A stretch of 34,464 nt of DNA from Candidatus Fermentithermobacillaceae bacterium (GTDB lineage: Bacteria; Bacillota; Sulfobacillia; Fermentithermobacillales; Fermentithermobacillaceae). Below, piece after piece: positions 12,101 to 20,024 of the stretch; the stretch's first letter is position 1, and every line of letters begins with the position of its first letter. Location: assembly GCA_012842425.1 (NCBI GenBank), contig DUSU01000039.1, positions 1 through 34,464 of the forward strand, written 5' to 3'. Below the pieces are notes generated by a model. It saw only the letters and a list, made by a program, of their open reading frames with translations. It ran no database searches and was not told the origin of the DNA. The position numbers were made by a program, and so were the translations under genes.

Positions 12101-12723
12101 CTTTGGGCAGCGTCAACCTGAAGGCCGAGGAAGAGCTGAAGGAGCTTTCGGACAGGCTCGAGATTATCGCAGCCGAGAGGGCAGACGTAGAAGAAGCCAT
12201 CAAGGAGATCCACAGGGCGAGAGAAGTAGTGGAAAAGGAGATCGAGAGGCGTTTCCTGGAGACCTTCGCCTTGGTGCGCGACAGCTTCCGGGAGATATTC
12301 AGGGAGCTTTTCGGAGGAGGGAGTGGCGACCTCCACCTCATCGAAGAGACTCTGGGCGTGGAAGTCACCGCCGAGCCTCCGGGCAGGAGACAGAAGCACC
12401 TGAACCTCCTATCCGGTGGCGAAAGGTCCCTATGTGGTATCGCTCTCATTTTCGCTATACTGTCTGTAAAGCCGTCGCCTCTCATTGTGCTTGACGAGGT
12501 AGACACGGCTTTGGACGAGGTAAACGTCGTGAGATTCGGCGAGTTCTTGAGAAGGTATTCCCAGAACACTCAGTTCCTTGTCATAACGCACCAGAAAGCC
12601 ACCATGGAAGCAGCCGACCTCTTGTACGGGGTGACCATGCAGGAACCCGGGGTATCGAAGGTCTTCGGCATGCGCCTTAATGACGGTAATACGAGGCAGG
12701 GAGAGTTCAATGAGTCTTTTTGA
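9172..12723 (+). CDS. smc: Chromosome segregation protein SMC
   Basis: ORF 9103..12723, likely GTG start at 9172; LHGFKSFCDRTEI, VGPNGCGKSNLADALRWVLGEQ, long coiled coil with hinge, LNLLSGGERSLCGIALIFAI, LDEVDTALDEVNV. Confidence 0.97.
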   Translation: MLKKLTLHGFKSFCDRTEITLGKGATAIVGPNGCGKSNLADALRWVLGEQNPRVLRSSKQQDFIFSGTETRKAMGSCEVRLLFDGITEDTETEIVRRLNRDGTGEYRLNGKACRWKDIVETLAGTGLSHTGYVVIGQGTIHELASGRPEDRRLWIEEASGVARVRLDKRDMESRLTHAAAELQRLDDLTVELVSRKEKLAVDCEATSKYRELTSEKREVELAMWLSQAEEEGRKVSALTKRLERLKSDREHMELSGPRLKEREASLLEKKPALDEAISEVQKLREESAAALLALEKERDGARGQAMALMREIENRSARREALKKDLDKLAAEEASLVSRREVLAQRLQEAAQKLEEAEAERAKHEDLRREYSERAISLRTEVVQLTGDLAKLQRSGDELRRKLDENRRRARELASFLTSSKARAESEAALVTELEARLKEQSAKRSEHERRIAELDSGIASARAALDKELAAEKNLGARLSAVRARKKVLEDLEKAFEGYGKGPRSVLEAASQGRLKGVVGSVSQLVSCEAKYISALSAAIGGAAENIVVEDEEAAKAAIAMLKKTNGGRATFLPISLMRPREMPPRAQEALSRMKRVRPLLSVLAYPENVEAAVRYLCGRIVLADDLDTALAFMRASGWTTRAVTLSGESIEPGGAMTGGEAPRSEALFRRKQDLLDLTSEETRLAGEMDRVLGRRKAVEKEVSSLSGERERCVSLLGKVAAQVSRLEEQLKRAQASLSSLRAEIERREPEKASLEAEEREVLAELGAISERLSQVSRVMETKQSELEKLDAHLKEVSLSDRKSSDEIQRLRAEKEVLERDLSSVLRRLDGIVGEKSSHEKSLVEEENEIKKQSRSLDEMKSLTESLGERISDLEEESRRLARLFEEKSAEREALLAAISECQAEIARIERDSETLLTRIEETAAEIEVQQRALLDTKELIASEFGVQDLSAVTFERLTRAQALGKLEELDEALRALGSVNLKAEEELKELSDRLEIIAAERADVEEAIKEIHRAREVVEKEIERRFLETFALVRDSFREIFRELFGGGSGDLHLIEETLGVEVTAEPPGRRQKHLNLLSGGERSLCGIALIFAILSVKPSPLIVLDEVDTALDEVNVVRFGEFLRRYSQNTQFLVITHQKATMEAADLLYGVTMQEPGVSKVFGMRLNDGNTRQGEFNESF

Positions 12724-13627
12724 TAGGCTTCGCCAGGGGCTTAGGCGGACGTCGGCCAACCTGAGGGATGCCGTATCCGCAATCTTCACCGGGGGTCGAG
12801 TGACCGGCGAGTTCCTGGACGAACTTGAGGAAGTGCTGATCCAGTCCGACGTGGGCGTAAAGGCAGCGATGACGCTTAGGGACAGGATCCAAGAAGAGAA
12901 CAAGAAAAGGAACCTTAAAACCACCGAGGAGCTCTTCGGTGTGATGGAGGAGCTCGTCACCGAGATCCTGGAGGGCGTGGCCGAACCTCTTAAGACGGCG
13001 CCTTCAGGCCCCACGGTCTACGTCCTCGTGGGAGTAAACGGAGCAGGGAAGACCACGACCATCGGGAAACTGGCCGAGAGATGGCGGAGCCAAGGGAAGA
13101 GCGTCATCATGGCGGCGGCTGATACCTTTAGGGCGGCAGCCCAGGATCAGCTCGCGGTATGGGCGAAGAGGACGGGTTCCGCCCTCATAGCGCACCAGCC
13201 GGGTTCCGATCCGGGGGCGGTTGCTTTCGATGCCATTAGGGCCGCGCTCGCCAGGAACACGGACCTTGTGCTTGTTGACACTGCGGGAAGGCTCCACACC
13301 AAAGGAAACCTGATGGAGGAGCTCAGAAAGATCGTCCGGGTGATCGGAAGGGAGCTTCCCGGCGCGCCCCACGAAGTCATCCTCGTCATAGACGGGACCA
13401 CCGGTCAGAACGGTCTAAACCAAGCCAAGGTGTTTGCCGAGGCCGCGGGAGTAACGGGCGTGTGCATAACCAAACTCGACGGGTCATCCAAGGGTGGCAT
13501 CGCCGTTGCGATAGCAGATGAGCTGCGCCTGCCCATAAAGCTGATCGGAGTGGGAGAGTCTTTGGACGATCTCCGGGATTTCGAGGCGGGACCTTTCGCC
13601 AAGGCCTTGTTCGCCAAGCCTGAATAG
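12710..13627 (+). CDS. ftsY: Signal recognition particle receptor FtsY
   Basis: ATG at 12710; GVNGAGKTTTIGKLA, DTFRAAAQDQL, DTAGRLH, ITKLDGSSKGG; overlaps the smc 3' end. Confidence 0.96.
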   Translation: MSLFDRLRQGLRRTSANLRDAVSAIFTGGRVTGEFLDELEEVLIQSDVGVKAAMTLRDRIQEENKKRNLKTTEELFGVMEELVTEILEGVAEPLKTAPSGPTVYVLVGVNGAGKTTTIGKLAERWRSQGKSVIMAAADTFRAAAQDQLAVWAKRTGSALIAHQPGSDPGAVAFDAIRAALARNTDLVLVDTAGRLHTKGNLMEELRKIVRVIGRELPGAPHEVILVIDGTTGQNGLNQAKVFAEAAGVTGVCITKLDGSSKGGIAVAIADELRLPIKLIGVGESLDDLRDFEAGPFAKALFAKPE

Positions 13628-13640
13628 GGAGATGTGAGCC

Positions 13641-14555
13641 GTGGAAGGCCCGAGCGGCACTATCTTCAACATACAGAGGTTTTCCCTGCACGACGGTCCG
13701 GGTCTTAGAACCACTGTGTTCCTGAAGGGGTGTCCGCTCAGGTGTCCCTGGTGTCACAACCCCGAGAGCCAGAGTCCCGTACCCGAGGTCATGTACTGGA
13801 AGACAAGGTGCGTGGGTTGCGGCGCATGCGTTGCTGCCTGCCCTGAGGGCGTCCTGAGGCTCGAAGGCGGGCAGGTCGTCTTGACCGGCGAACGGTGCGC
13901 GGCTTGCGAAGAGTGCGTTAGTAGGTGCCCCGCGGGAGCGAGGGGCGTTTCCGGCAAAAAAGCCACTCCGGGGGAAGTCCTTTCGGAGGTCCTCAAGGAC
14001 ACCGTGTTTTTTGACCAGTCGGGCGGTGGAGTCACCTTCTCGGGCGGCGAGCCCCTATTCCAACCGGAGTTCTTGGAGGCTTCCCTCAGGCTTTGCAAGG
14101 AAGCCGGGCTCATGACCGCAGTCGACACCAGCGGGTTCGCACCCTGGGAGGCAATCGAAAGGCTCCTTCCTTTCACTGACCTCTTCCTCTATGACGTAAA
14201 GCACATGGATGATGCGGTACACCGCGAACTAATCGGCGTATCCAACAAGCTTATCCTGGAGAACCTTTGTCGCCTCGGCGGGACAGGAAAGGAAGTCTTG
14301 GCAAGGTTGCCGCTCATCCCTGGCGTAAATGACCAAAGGGACAACATAGAGAAGACTGGGGAGTTTCTTTCGTCTGTAGGAGTCTCGCGGATAACGGTGC
14401 TTCCCTATCACGACATGGGGAAAGAAAAGTATGAGCGTTTGGGAAGGGATTACGCGCTGACGGAACTCTTGGAGCCACCGGACGAAGACATCGAGAGGGT
14501 AGTCAATGCGCTTAAGGGTCTTGGATTGCGGGTTGAAGTGAGCGGGCGGTCATAG
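13641..14555 (+). CDS. Glycyl-radical enzyme activating protein (radical SAM), HypE-like
   Basis: FLKGCPLRCPWCHNPES (CxxxCxxC) plus two ferredoxin-like Cys clusters (CVGCGACVAACPEG, CAACEECVSRCPAG); FSGGEPLFQPEF; directly upstream of the glycyl-radical enzyme. Confidence 0.93.
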   Translation: MEGPSGTIFNIQRFSLHDGPGLRTTVFLKGCPLRCPWCHNPESQSPVPEVMYWKTRCVGCGACVAACPEGVLRLEGGQVVLTGERCAACEECVSRCPAGARGVSGKKATPGEVLSEVLKDTVFFDQSGGGVTFSGGEPLFQPEFLEASLRLCKEAGLMTAVDTSGFAPWEAIERLLPFTDLFLYDVKHMDDAVHRELIGVSNKLILENLCRLGGTGKEVLARLPLIPGVNDQRDNIEKTGEFLSSVGVSRITVLPYHDMGKEKYERLGRDYALTELLEPPDEDIERVVNALKGLGLRVEVSGRS

Positions 14556-14583
14556 GTTGTTATAAGTACCGGAGGGATGAGCC

Positions 14584-16944
14584 GTGAGAGAGAGAGTTCA
14601 GAGACTGCGTGAGAGAAGCCTTAGCGCCGTGCCGGAGCTTTCCATTGAGCGCGCCCTCATAGTCACCGACGTGTACAAGGAATACCAGGGCAAAGTATCG
14701 ACTCCCGTCCTGAGAGCCCTCACGTTCAAAGCATTGATGGAAAAGAAGGCAGTTTATATAGGAGAAGATGAACTTATCGTCGGAGAGCGTGGAGAACGCC
14801 CGAAGAGGACTCCTACATATCCGGAGCTTTGCTGCCACACGCTCGACGATTTCCAAATCATCAACGATAGGGAAAAGACCTTCTTCCGGGTAGATCCCGA
14901 AGCCCGAAAGGCTCAGGCCGAGATAATCATTCCTTACTGGGAAAAGAGGTCTATGAGGCACAAACTCTTCTCCCAGATGTCCCAAGAGTGGATAGACTGT
15001 TACGAAGCAGGCATTTTCACCGAGTTCATGGAGCAGCGCGCTCCCGGACACACGGTCCTCGACGGGAAGATCTACGAGAAGGGCTTCCTCGATTTCAAGG
15101 AAGACATCCGTCGGGCCATAGGGGCGCTTGACTTCGCGAATGACCCGCGCGCGTACGAAAAGCGTGAAGAGCTCAGGGCCATGGACATCTGCTGCGATGC
15201 CATCATCACCTATGCGTGGCGCCACGCCGAGCTGGCGAGGAAGATGGCAGAGGAGTGCCACGATCCGGTGAGGAAGGAAGAACTCCTCAAGATTGCCGAG
15301 ATATCGTCTCACGTGCCTGCCCGTCCTCCCAGGACCTTCTGGGAGGCGCTCCAGATGTACTGGTACGTCCACATATGCGTCATAACCGAGCTCAACACGT
15401 GGGATTCCTTTAACCCCGGAAGGCTCGACCAGCACCTGTATCCCTTCTACAAGAAGGAACTCGAGGAAGGTACCCTCACCCGCGAGGACGCCAGGGAGCT
15501 CCTGCAGTGCTTCTGGGTTAAGTTCAACAACCAGCCGGCACCGCCCAAAGTAGGCATCACGCTGGCTGAGAGCGGCACGTATACCGATTTTGCCAATATC
15601 AACGTGGGCGGTCTAAAGGTGGACGGATCGTGCGGAGTCAATGACGTCTCCTACTTGCTCCTGGAAGTCATCGACGAGATGCGGCTACTCCAACCTTCTT
15701 CCAATATCCAGCTTAGCGCCAAGAACCCTGACCACTTCTTGCGCAAAGCCTGCGAGGTCATCAGGAAGGGCTGGGGACAGCCTTCTGTGTTTAACGCCGA
15801 TGTGGTAGTGCAGGAGATGCTCCGAGCGGGCAAGACCGTCGAAGATGCGCGGCAAGGAGGCACGTCCGGTTGCGTGGAAACCGGGGCCTTTGGCAAGGAG
15901 AGCTACATCCTCACCGGGTACCTAAACCTTCCCAAGATACTGGAGATCACCCTCCACAACGGAGTTGACCCCCGTACGGGCAAGGAGATAGGGAAGAAAA
16001 CCGGCGAGCCGTCTTCGTGGGCTACTTTCGAGGACCTCCTTAGGGCCTACGAGGAGCAGCTCCGGTACTTCATAGACGTTAAGATCAAAGGCAACAACAT
16101 AATCGAGTACCTCTACGCCGAGAACATGCCCTGCCCGTTCCTGTCGACCATAATCAGCGACTGCATTGAGAACGGCACCGACTACAATGCGGGCGGAGCC
16201 AGATACCACACCAGGTACATCCAAGGTGTGGGGATAGCGTCGATCACCGACAGCCTCGCCGCGATCAAGGACCTCGTGTTTGAGAGGCAGCTCCTAACGG
16301 CCGACGAGCTGGTGGGGGTGCTTGAGAGGAACTTCGAGGACGCTCCCTCTCTCAGGGAGATCGCGGTCTCCCAGTGTCCCAAGTACGGAAACGACGACGA
16401 CCGGGCCGACGAGATCATGACACGGGTGTTCCACATGTTCTTCCGGCTTGTGGACGGGCGGAAGAGCCCGACCGGCGGCACTTACCATATCGACATGCTT
16501 CCTACCACGTGCCACGTATACTTCGGGTCCGTCACGGGCGCAACCCCCGACGGCAGGCTCGCGGGCGAGCCGCTCTCAGAGGGCATCTCCCCGGTGCAGG
16601 GGCGGGATAAGTACGGGCCAACTGCCGTCTTGAAGTCGGCTTCAAAGATGGATCACGTGAAGACGGGAGGTACGCTCCTAAACCAGAAGTTCTCGCCCGA
16701 GGTCTTAGAGGGAGAAGAGGGGCTCAGGGCTCTCATGAACCTCATACGGGCTTACTTCAAGCTCGGCGGCCATCACATACAGTTCAACGTGATAAACGCC
16801 CAGACGCTCCGCGACGCTCAGGCAAATCCCGATAGGTACAGAGACCTTATCGTCAGGGTAGCGGGGTACAGCGATTACTTCTGCGACCTGAGCCGCGCCT
16901 TGCAGGATGAGATAATCGCGAGGACGGAGCACAAATCATTCTGA
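14584..16944 (+). CDS. hypD: Glycyl-radical enzyme, likely trans-4-hydroxy-L-proline dehydratase (HypD-like)
   Basis: C-terminal glycyl-radical motif VRVAGYSDYF; thiyl site GGTSGCVETGAFGKESYILTGYLN; GIFTEFMEQRAPGHTV, ITELNTWDSFNPGRLDQHL, ESGTYTDFANIN, DMLPTTCH as recalled for C. difficile HypD. Confidence 0.82.
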   Translation: MRERVQRLRERSLSAVPELSIERALIVTDVYKEYQGKVSTPVLRALTFKALMEKKAVYIGEDELIVGERGERPKRTPTYPELCCHTLDDFQIINDREKTFFRVDPEARKAQAEIIIPYWEKRSMRHKLFSQMSQEWIDCYEAGIFTEFMEQRAPGHTVLDGKIYEKGFLDFKEDIRRAIGALDFANDPRAYEKREELRAMDICCDAIITYAWRHAELARKMAEECHDPVRKEELLKIAEISSHVPARPPRTFWEALQMYWYVHICVITELNTWDSFNPGRLDQHLYPFYKKELEEGTLTREDARELLQCFWVKFNNQPAPPKVGITLAESGTYTDFANINVGGLKVDGSCGVNDVSYLLLEVIDEMRLLQPSSNIQLSAKNPDHFLRKACEVIRKGWGQPSVFNADVVVQEMLRAGKTVEDARQGGTSGCVETGAFGKESYILTGYLNLPKILEITLHNGVDPRTGKEIGKKTGEPSSWATFEDLLRAYEEQLRYFIDVKIKGNNIIEYLYAENMPCPFLSTIISDCIENGTDYNAGGARYHTRYIQGVGIASITDSLAAIKDLVFERQLLTADELVGVLERNFEDAPSLREIAVSQCPKYGNDDDRADEIMTRVFHMFFRLVDGRKSPTGGTYHIDMLPTTCHVYFGSVTGATPDGRLAGEPLSEGISPVQGRDKYGPTAVLKSASKMDHVKTGGTLLNQKFSPEVLEGEEGLRALMNLIRAYFKLGGHHIQFNVINAQTLRDAQANPDRYRDLIVRVAGYSDYFCDLSRALQDEIIARTEHKSF

Positions 16945-17000
16945 CACAAGTTCTGAGTAAGGCCGGCATGAAGGGCGTCATTAAGTTCTCACGCGCGTTC

Positions 17001-17030
17001 AGGCTCCGGTAAGCTCCGGAGCCTTGCTTT
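17001..17030 (+). terminator. Terminator after the hypD-like gene
   Basis: GGCTCCGG (17002-17009)-TAAGCT-CCGGAGCC (17016-17023)-TTGCTTT. Confidence 0.65.
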
Positions 17031-17034
17031 AGCC

Positions 17035-18225
17035 TTACCGAAGTATTTGCTCGTACACCTCGGCGACCCTGTGGGCGGTGGCCTCAGCCGAGTGCTCTTC
17101 TCGGACGAGTTCCAGGCCAAATGCCTTAATCTCGTCTAGCCGGGGATGGGACAGGGCCTCTTCGATTTCTGCCGCGAGGACTTTCGGTTCTACCGGTTTC
17201 GGGGCGCCTCTGGATATGAAGTTCCGCTTTTCCAGTTCTTCCGCGTTCTCGGGTTGGACGAGGCCGAAGTCGCCTTCCGGTCCTGCCACTATGCAGGGCT
17301 TTCCGCAAGCCATGGCCTCAAGGACCACCCTTGACATCCCGACGATCAAATCGGCGGCTTGGTAGAGCCGGGCCATGTCGCTCACGAAACCCAGGCACTT
17401 CACAAACTCCCTGCCGAAGCGCTCATTGGCCTCTTGAGCGGCCTTCTGGACTTTTCCCAGAGAGTCGCCGTCCCCGGCTATCAAAAGGCGCAGGCCGGGA
17501 TGGGCCTCCGCCAGGATACAAGCGGCCTCGACGGTAAGGCATGCCGTGGTGCTCAAGTCGGGGTTCATCCGCGAGGCGTAGACAAGGACAGGTCCCTCCC
17601 CTGCGTCGGTGAAAAAATCCTTCCTGAGGCTTAGGGACTCTTCGCGGGAGACGGGCCGGAACTCCGAACAATCGATCCCGTTGGGGATGACGGTTATCTT
17701 TTCCGGGGAGAAACCGAACTCTTTCACAATGTAATCCTTGATCACGTCGCTTACGGCGATGGTCCAGTCGCCCGGGCGCGAGACCAGGTTCCAGGGAAAG
17801 CCCGAGACGAAGGTCCAATGGTATGTCGTCACGAGGGGCACGTTAAGCTTTTTCGCCACGTAGGTGCCTATCCAGGCGGGGATCCTGGCGTGGGCGTGGA
17901 TGAGATCAACGTTTCGCGTCTTCACGATGTGGGTGAGAGACCGGTATGCCCGGAGCATTTTGAGTGGATCTCGCGAGCCAAGCGGGACGTGGAAGTGCTC
18001 GATCCCGGAATCCGTGATGTCTCTAACCCTCCTGCCGCCGCCTGATGCTACGAGGACCTTCCAGCCCATCTCCTTCAAGGACCTGGAGAGGCTCACTATG
18101 TGAGTCTCGGCGCCTCCGATATCCAGACCCATGGCCAGCTCAAGCACAACTCTCTCTCTATGTTCCCGCGACGTCTCTTCGGTCTTGCCCACACTGTTCC
18201 TCCTTCCGCCAATGAGCCCGGACAC
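17035..18225 (-). CDS. Glycosyltransferase family 4 (group 1) protein
   Basis: LELAMGLDIGGAETHIVSLSRSL, HAHARIPAWIG, VIPNGIDCSEFRPV, LLIAGDGDS, EAMACGKPCIV. Confidence 0.88.
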   Translation of the reverse strand: MSGLIGGRRNSVGKTEETSREHRERVVLELAMGLDIGGAETHIVSLSRSLKEMGWKVLVASGGGRRVRDITDSGIEHFHVPLGSRDPLKMLRAYRSLTHIVKTRNVDLIHAHARIPAWIGTYVAKKLNVPLVTTYHWTFVSGFPWNLVSRPGDWTIAVSDVIKDYIVKEFGFSPEKITVIPNGIDCSEFRPVSREESLSLRKDFFTDAGEGPVLVYASRMNPDLSTTACLTVEAACILAEAHPGLRLLIAGDGDSLGKVQKAAQEANERFGREFVKCLGFVSDMARLYQAADLIVGMSRVVLEAMACGKPCIVAGPEGDFGLVQPENAEELEKRNFISRGAPKPVEPKVLAAEIEEALSHPRLDEIKAFGLELVREEHSAEATAHRVAEVYEQILR

Positions 18226-18270
18226 TGGGGGATATTCCCCTCAGCATGTACGTTTCCCTGCAAACATGTC

Positions 18271-18299
18271 TTGATCTCAGCCCCTGAAAGGTGTAGTAT
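18271..18299 (+). promoter_or_regulatory. Candidate promoter for ylxM-ffh
   Basis: TTGATC (18271-18276), 17-bp spacer, TAGTAT (18294-18299). Confidence 0.5.
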
Positions 18300-18343
18300 G
18301 CAAGGGGGTGTAAAGGTGTAGACCAATACAGTGGGGTCTGAAC

Positions 18344-18718
18344 ATGTCGTACTCGCCGGAAAAGGTTCATGAGATGTCGGTGCTTTTCGACCTATATGAA
18401 AGCATGCTGGCTCCCAGGCAGAGGGAAGTCCTCGACCTGAAGCTGCATGAGGACCTATCGCTCATGGAGATCTCGGAGCGTCTCGCGATATCCAGGCAGG
18501 CCTGCGAGGATGCGCTGAAACGCGGCGAGAGGATACTGCGCAAACTGGAAAGCAGCATCGGGCTCCGGAAGCGGATTTTGGAGGAAGAGGACCGCGCCGC
18601 CCGTCTTGCGGAGAGGTTGTCTTCCATGGACTCGTATAACTGGCGAGAGGTAAGAGACATGTGCCTTAAGATCTTGTCTCCCGTCTTGAGCGGTGGTGAT
18701 GCTGAAGATGGAGTTTGA
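18344..18718 (+). CDS. ylxM: YlxM/UPF0122 family HTH protein, SRP-associated
   Basis: LYESMLAPRQREVLDLKLHEDLSLMEISERLAISRQACEDALKRGE; immediately upstream of ffh. Confidence 0.92.
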   Translation: MSYSPEKVHEMSVLFDLYESMLAPRQREVLDLKLHEDLSLMEISERLAISRQACEDALKRGERILRKLESSIGLRKRILEEEDRAARLAERLSSMDSYNWREVRDMCLKILSPVLSGGDAEDGV

Positions 18719-20024
18719 GGGACTTTCAGCGCGCCTTTCGGGCGTGTTCAGGAAATTGCGCGGAAAGGGCAAGCTTTCGGAGAAGGACATCGACGAAGCC
18801 CTCCGTGAAGTCCGTCTTTCCCTTCTTGAGGCGGACGTCAATTTCAAGGTTGTAAGGGAATTCATTGCGCAGGTAAAGGAGAAGAGCCTCTCTGCGGAGG
18901 TTCTGGAGAGCCTTACTCCCGCGCAGCAAGTGATCAAGATCGTAAACGACGAGATGGTCGCCCTCATGGGCGGGAGGGCCAAACCCCTGGACCTTTCCGG
19001 GAACCCGCCTGCTGTACTCGTCCTCTACGGGCTCCAGGGTTCCGGGAAGACCACTACCGCGGGAAAACTGGCCCTCAGTCTCAGGAAGAACGGCAGACGG
19101 GTTATGCTGGTGTCTTGCGACGTATACCGTCCGGCCGCCCAGAGGCAGCTTGAGATCCTCGCCGAGAAGTCAGGTGCCGGCTTTTTCACCATGGATACCG
19201 GTACCGATCCCGCGATAATCGCCAAGAACGGTTACGAAAAGGCCCGTACGTCGGCATATGACGTCGTCATTTTCGATACTGCCGGCAGGACCCAGCTTGA
19301 TGACGAGATGATGGACGAGGCCAAGAGGATCAGGGATGCGGTTTATCCCAGAGAGAGTATCCTCGTGGTTGACGCCATGACCGGTCAGGAAGCGTGCAGG
19401 GTGGCCCAGGCGTTTGATGAGAAAGTGGGGCTCACCGGCATCATACTCACCAAGATTGACTCCGACGCCCGCGGCGGCGCGGCGCTTTCCATCGCTAAAG
19501 TCACGGGTAAACCCATCAAGTTCGCTTCCAGCGGAGAGAAGCTCGAAGACTTCCAGGTGTTCCACCCTGACCGCATGGCTTCCAGGATCCTGGGGATGGG
19601 CGACGTCTTGACCCTCATCGAGAAAGCCCAGGCGTCCTTCGACGAGAAGAAAGCGGAGGAGATGGAGCGCAAGCTCCGCCGGAAGGAGTTCACTCTGGAA
19701 GACTTCGTGGACCAGATGAAGGAAGTAAAGAAGATGGGGTCTTTTGGAGACCTCCTCAGGATGATCCCGGGCTTCAACAAGATGAAGATCGACGTGGACA
19801 TCGACCCCAAGGAGTGGGGGCGCCTCGAAGCGATCATCAGTTCAATGACGCCCCTCGAGAGACGGAAACCCGAGATTATCGACGGTTCGAGAAAACGCAG
19901 GATAGCAAGAGGCAGCGGTACGCAGGTACAGGATGTGAACCGGCTGCTCAAACAGTTTTTCCAGGCGCGCAGGATGATGTTCCAGATGACGCCTGAGAAG
20001 CGGGGCAGATTACGTCTGCCTTGA
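18699..20024 (+). CDS. ffh: Signal recognition particle protein Ffh
   Basis: ORF 18693..20024; [53 protein letters not shown], Met-rich M domain. Confidence 0.96.

Follow-up and report, generated by a model that had tools for sequence, protein, structure and literature searches.

A predicted trans-4-hydroxy-L-proline dehydratase and its activase in a housekeeping gene row of Candidatus Fermentithermobacillaceae

The window, by which we mean the whole stretch of 34,464 nucleotides that was analysed, belongs to a metagenome-assembled genome of Candidatus Fermentithermobacillaceae (G000; 1.68 Mb, 113 contigs, 84% complete). It carries a gene for a glycyl-radical enzyme (GRE), assigned here to trans-4-hydroxy-L-proline dehydratase (HypD), directly downstream of a gene for a radical-SAM activase (Table 1). 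Both genes use a GTG start codon. The activase gene begins 13 bp past ftsY and is preceded by a Shine-Dalgarno-like GGAG at 13628, while the HypD gene begins 28 bp past the activase gene and is preceded by GGAGGG at 14571. In three genomes of one genus (G000, G001 and G003) the gene row reads smc, ftsY, activase, HypD, a glycosyltransferase gene in reverse orientation, ylxM and ffh, and no other proline-metabolism gene is found at this locus.

Table 1. Features of the HypD locus, in window positions
Feature	Position	Strand	Basis
Radical-SAM GRE activase, two additional ferredoxin-type 4Fe-4S motifs, 304 aa	13641..14555	+	TIGR02494, Cys motifs
HypD, trans-4-hydroxy-L-proline dehydratase, GRE, 786 aa	14584..16944	+	NF043068, 6vxc alignment, tree
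Cys loop CVE: thiyl C430, acid/hydrogen-bond E432 (C. difficile C434, E436)	15871..15879	+	6vxc alignment; 92/92 identical
Codon of radical glycine G761 (C. difficile G765)	16864..16866	+	6vxc alignment; 92/92 identical
Stem-loop with a perfect 9-bp stem, between the converging genes for HypD and the glycosyltransferase	17001..17024		Read from sequence

The stem-loop is a possible terminator. The terminator scan requires a longer T run and does not report it, and a promoter scan of positions 12500-18800 returned no sigma-70-like sites, a result that says little. The family 4 glycosyltransferase gene (17035-18225, reverse strand) accompanies the HypD pair in the host genus and is missing from the ftsY-ffh site of G004 and G007. 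These two genomes represent other genera in which HypD was not found, and in them ftsY is followed directly by ylxM-ffh. In G002, a further member of the host genus, the glycosyltransferase gene is present, and the apparent absence of HypD is uninformative because the contig ends within that gene, just before the expected HypD position. We therefore do not count G002 as a genome that lacks HypD.

The earlier note, made from the sequence alone, had described a GRE of this length with a VRVAGYSDYF radical loop and a GCVETG loop, and had named HypD as the best guess. Both loops lie where it had read them, and the assignment is borne out by several comparisons. The enzyme scores 1376.5 bits against the HypD equivalog model NF043068 (cut-off 1100), its best match among GRE models, whereas the next equivalog gives 576.6 bits and no other specific GRE model exceeds 577; the broader subfamily TIGR01774 is also passed. 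Among solved structures, the HypD of C. difficile ranks highest (6vxc, 1101 bits), ahead of glycerol dehydratase (551) and HplG (7vua, 432). The alignment to 6vxc shows 58.4% identity over 781 residues with no gaps and a numbering offset of 4. Chance similarity is excluded because E is reported as 0 for both NF043068 and 6vxc.

A quick maximum-likelihood tree places the enzyme within a HypD clade that stands apart from other GREs (SH-aLRT 100). It forms a short branch well inside this clade. The HypD sequences of Candidatus Fermentithermobacillaceae, which were found above cut-off in 9 of 14 genomes, form a single clade inside HypD (SH-aLRT 99), and the three sequences from the host genus group together with a support of 100. 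The nearest GREs to the window enzyme are all from Candidatus Fermentithermobacillaceae, at 88% and then 70-73% identity. No other GRE was found in G000.

The core features of a GRE are present in the form of the radical glycine G761 and the CXE Cys loop. The nine residues of the C. difficile enzyme whose counterparts had been proposed from recall (F152, H160, D278, S334, F340, C434, E436, Y450 and T645) all map as claimed, to F148, H156, D274, S330, F336, C430, E432, Y446 and T641 of the window enzyme in the 6vxc alignment. Further conserved HypD positions in C. difficile numbering are R156, W277, K326, D339 and G765. There are no substitutions at the hydroxyproline-binding residues, and every one of the hydroxyproline-specific positions is kept (F152, R156, H160, W277, D278, K326, S334, D339, F340, Y450 and T645). 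The 14 catalytic and substrate positions are invariant in all 92 HypD-clade sequences, while GREs beyond this clade carry different residues at most substrate positions. The roles of these residues have been described for C. difficile HypD, in which variants at C434, H160, D278, D339, E436, S334 and F340 have no detectable activity (PMC7077986).

One GRE from a relative in the same class (G053, L132:589-2943) was examined as a candidate intermediate. It is 42% identical to the window enzyme and scores about equally against the glycerol dehydratase and HypD structures. In it S334, F340, Y450 and T645 are retained, whereas F152 and D278 are both replaced by Tyr.

The description of the upstream protein as a radical-SAM activase with two extra 4Fe-4S clusters also holds. 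Its cysteine motifs comprise the radical-SAM CX3CX2C (CPLRCPWC, at residue 31) and two ferredoxin-type CX2CX2CX3C motifs starting at residues 57 and 86. It passes the GRE-activase subfamily model TIGR02494 (358 bits, cut-off 174), and its top-scoring model is that of the HypD activase, NF043069, with 378.8 bits under a curated cut-off of 425. By its sequence, the protein is thus a GRE activase by subfamily that is most similar to HypD activases. It would be expected to activate the neighbouring HypD because the genes adjoin and no other GRE was found in the genome. The pair resembles that of C. difficile (6vxc, 6vxe and HypD-AE) in these residues, in the ungapped alignment and in the architecture of the activase.

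Taken as a whole, the gene pair is predicted to be a genuine HypD with its activase, and we give HypD activity a probability of roughly 0.93. The window enzyme appears to be an ordinary and well-supported new HypD member from an uncultured fermenting lineage. A different GRE, such as the trans-4-hydroxy-D-proline C-N lyase HplG or some other GRE eliminase, shares the superfamily, and HplG is likewise a hydroxyproline enzyme (PMC11528403), which counts in its favour. HplG belongs to another GRE branch and performs another reaction, and the window enzyme matches it with 432 bits against 1101 for HypD. Along with the low scores for the other specific GRE models and the different substrate residues outside the HypD clade, this leads us to reject HplG and the other GRE classes, as far as sequence can decide, as next to inconceivable. 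That the enzyme, although of the HypD clade, now acts on a related substrate, for example another hydroxyproline isomer, might be suspected from the orphan position of the gene in a housekeeping row, away from proline genes. However, the substrate-contacting residues are all unchanged, the enzyme lies on a short branch well within the clade, and sister genera with enzymes that are 70-73% identical have proline-related neighbours. We consider such a shift very improbable.

The HypD loci of these sister genera (L004, L005, L007, L122 and L124) encode enzymes that share 69-73% identity and one clade with the window enzyme and, wherever the stretch reaches it, have the activase upstream as well. 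Unlike in the window, they lie outside the ftsY-ffh row, near flavoprotein dehydrogenase-like genes and an M24 (prolidase-like) peptidase gene. In L004 and L005, HypD is followed by genes for a GntR regulator, a proline-racemase-family protein, flavoprotein dehydrogenase-like proteins, a DUF885 protein and the M24 peptidase. The DUF885 protein, encoded beside the M24 peptidase (L004:17093-18799; L005:17634-19379), is possibly a peptidase as well. The flavoprotein genes are also present in L007 and L122-L124, as is the M24 peptidase gene where the stretch extends far enough. The proline-racemase-family protein occurs near HypD in one sister genus, and a 24.8-bit match to proline racemase in G000 is below cut-off and was rejected. 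The simplest reading of these sequences is that HypD was inherited by descent within Candidatus Fermentithermobacillaceae, and we infer that in the host genus it moved into the ftsY-ffh row.

The earlier note had also pointed out that no gene for pyrroline-5-carboxylate (P5C) reductase, proC, adjoins HypD, and had offered a variant substrate as one implication. It is correct that proC is absent from the window, but the genome search that it proposed finds the gene above cut-off elsewhere. In G000, proC lies on contig C58 and HypD on contig C21, and the gene adjacency that would mark the HypD-P5CR-proline reductase (Stickland) pathway of Clostridiales is thus not seen. ProC forms the N-terminal half of a 601 amino acid ProC-ProB fusion in one frame (L150:2431-4236), in which the ProC part scores 243.8 bits against TIGR00112 (cut-off 196.75) and the glutamate 5-kinase part, ProB, scores 277 bits against TIGR01027 (cut-off 186). 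Judged by its sequence, the gene that follows looks like proA (glutamyl-phosphate reductase). The single-frame fusion and the proA-like gene behind it are seen in full in G000, G002 and G007 (also L147:2770-4656 and L148:3240-4919), and searches also indicate the fusion in G004, G006 and G009, plus G014 of a sister family. A shallow check of the literature gave no obvious description of this fusion.

The absence of proC next to HypD means little because proC is located elsewhere in the same genome. Moreover, adjacency is exceptional among related HypD loci. Of 80 such loci only 12 have proC nearby. When only loci flanked on each side by 1.5 kb or more are counted, the figure is 11 of 62, and for flanks of 5 kb or more it is 9 of 45. 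These figures come from a neighbour search with one diverged ProC as query, and an independent neighbour clustering likewise gives 12 loci. Eleven of the 12 belong to the branch that includes C. difficile HypD, the gene of which adjoins proC, and in this set of loci proC adjacency is mostly confined to that one branch. Similarly, of four clostridia compared in a published study, two have hypD next to proC and two have the genes separated (PMC9044972). We therefore reject the distant position of proC as a sign of a variant substrate.

As homology to the characterised enzyme suggests, the activase and SAM would place a radical on G761, from which it would pass to C430. The resulting thiyl radical would abstract a hydrogen from C5 of hydroxyproline, and D274, with H156 and E432, would help the loss of the 4-hydroxyl group to yield (S)-P5C. 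Most likely, P5C would then be converted to proline by the ProC half of the fusion protein encoded on the other contig.

Because ProC is found and no P5C dehydrogenase scores above cut-off, G000 most likely makes proline, which we regard as the probable main fate of P5C in this genome. A less likely course is that HypD acts as named and that P5C is for the most part not reduced to proline: a P5C dehydrogenase would oxidise it to glutamate, and it would be fermented. P5C dehydrogenase does adjoin HypD at some other HypD loci, the model TIGR01236 is matched above cut-off in G002, G003, G008, G009 and G010, and a copy could be missing from G000 since that genome is 84% complete. However, ProC is present in G000, and the sole aldehyde dehydrogenase match there seems to resemble the betaine-aldehyde or ExaC type most and falls short of the cut-offs for both. 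TIGR01236 is likewise not matched above cut-off in G001, G004, G005, G006 and G007, where gaps in the assemblies limit the meaning of absence. Ornithine aminotransferase was considered as an exit for P5C and rejected, with matches within the family that are all below cut-off.

ProC is found in G000, G002, G004, G006, G007 and G009 and was not found in G001, G003, G005, G008 and G010, subject to the same assembly gaps. Four of these latter genomes are HypD-positive (G001, G003, G005 and G008; L113, L114, L121 and L119). ProC is thus not an obligate partner across the host genus, because G001 and G003 carry HypD without a detectable ProC. In G003 and G008, P5C probably proceeds to glutamate. G001 (97% complete) and G005 (92%) carry HypD, yet the searches detected no ProC and no curated P5C dehydrogenase in either. 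One further possibility, which we hold to be rather unlikely, is that in the host genus the move of HypD into the smc-ftsY-ffh row uncoupled it from known P5C-using enzymes, and that in G001 and G005 an unrecognised enzyme handles P5C or its open-chain form.

Fermentation by proline reductase in the Stickland manner is unlikely in the host. The proline reductase PrdB presumably belongs to the GRDB family (PF07355), and the search for this reductase, also proposed in the earlier note, gave no PF07355 match in any of the 14 Candidatus Fermentithermobacillaceae genomes, including the 84% complete G000. The same search produced matches in 10 class relatives as a positive control. The host genome thus differs from C. 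difficile in that no GRDB-family protein was found and in the location of the HypD pair between ftsY and ylxM-ffh.

These observations caution that a missing neighbour gene is poor ground for inferring a variant substrate. The HypD-positive relatives with no detectable ProC or P5C dehydrogenase pose a small, testable question about the destination of P5C. For one described member of this lineage, a metabolism that ferments peptides and amino acids has been predicted (PMC10215811). For the host, HypD would provide a means to recover hydroxyproline from peptides of collagen or plant origin, and the known carriers of this enzyme are extended by an uncultured fermenting lineage.
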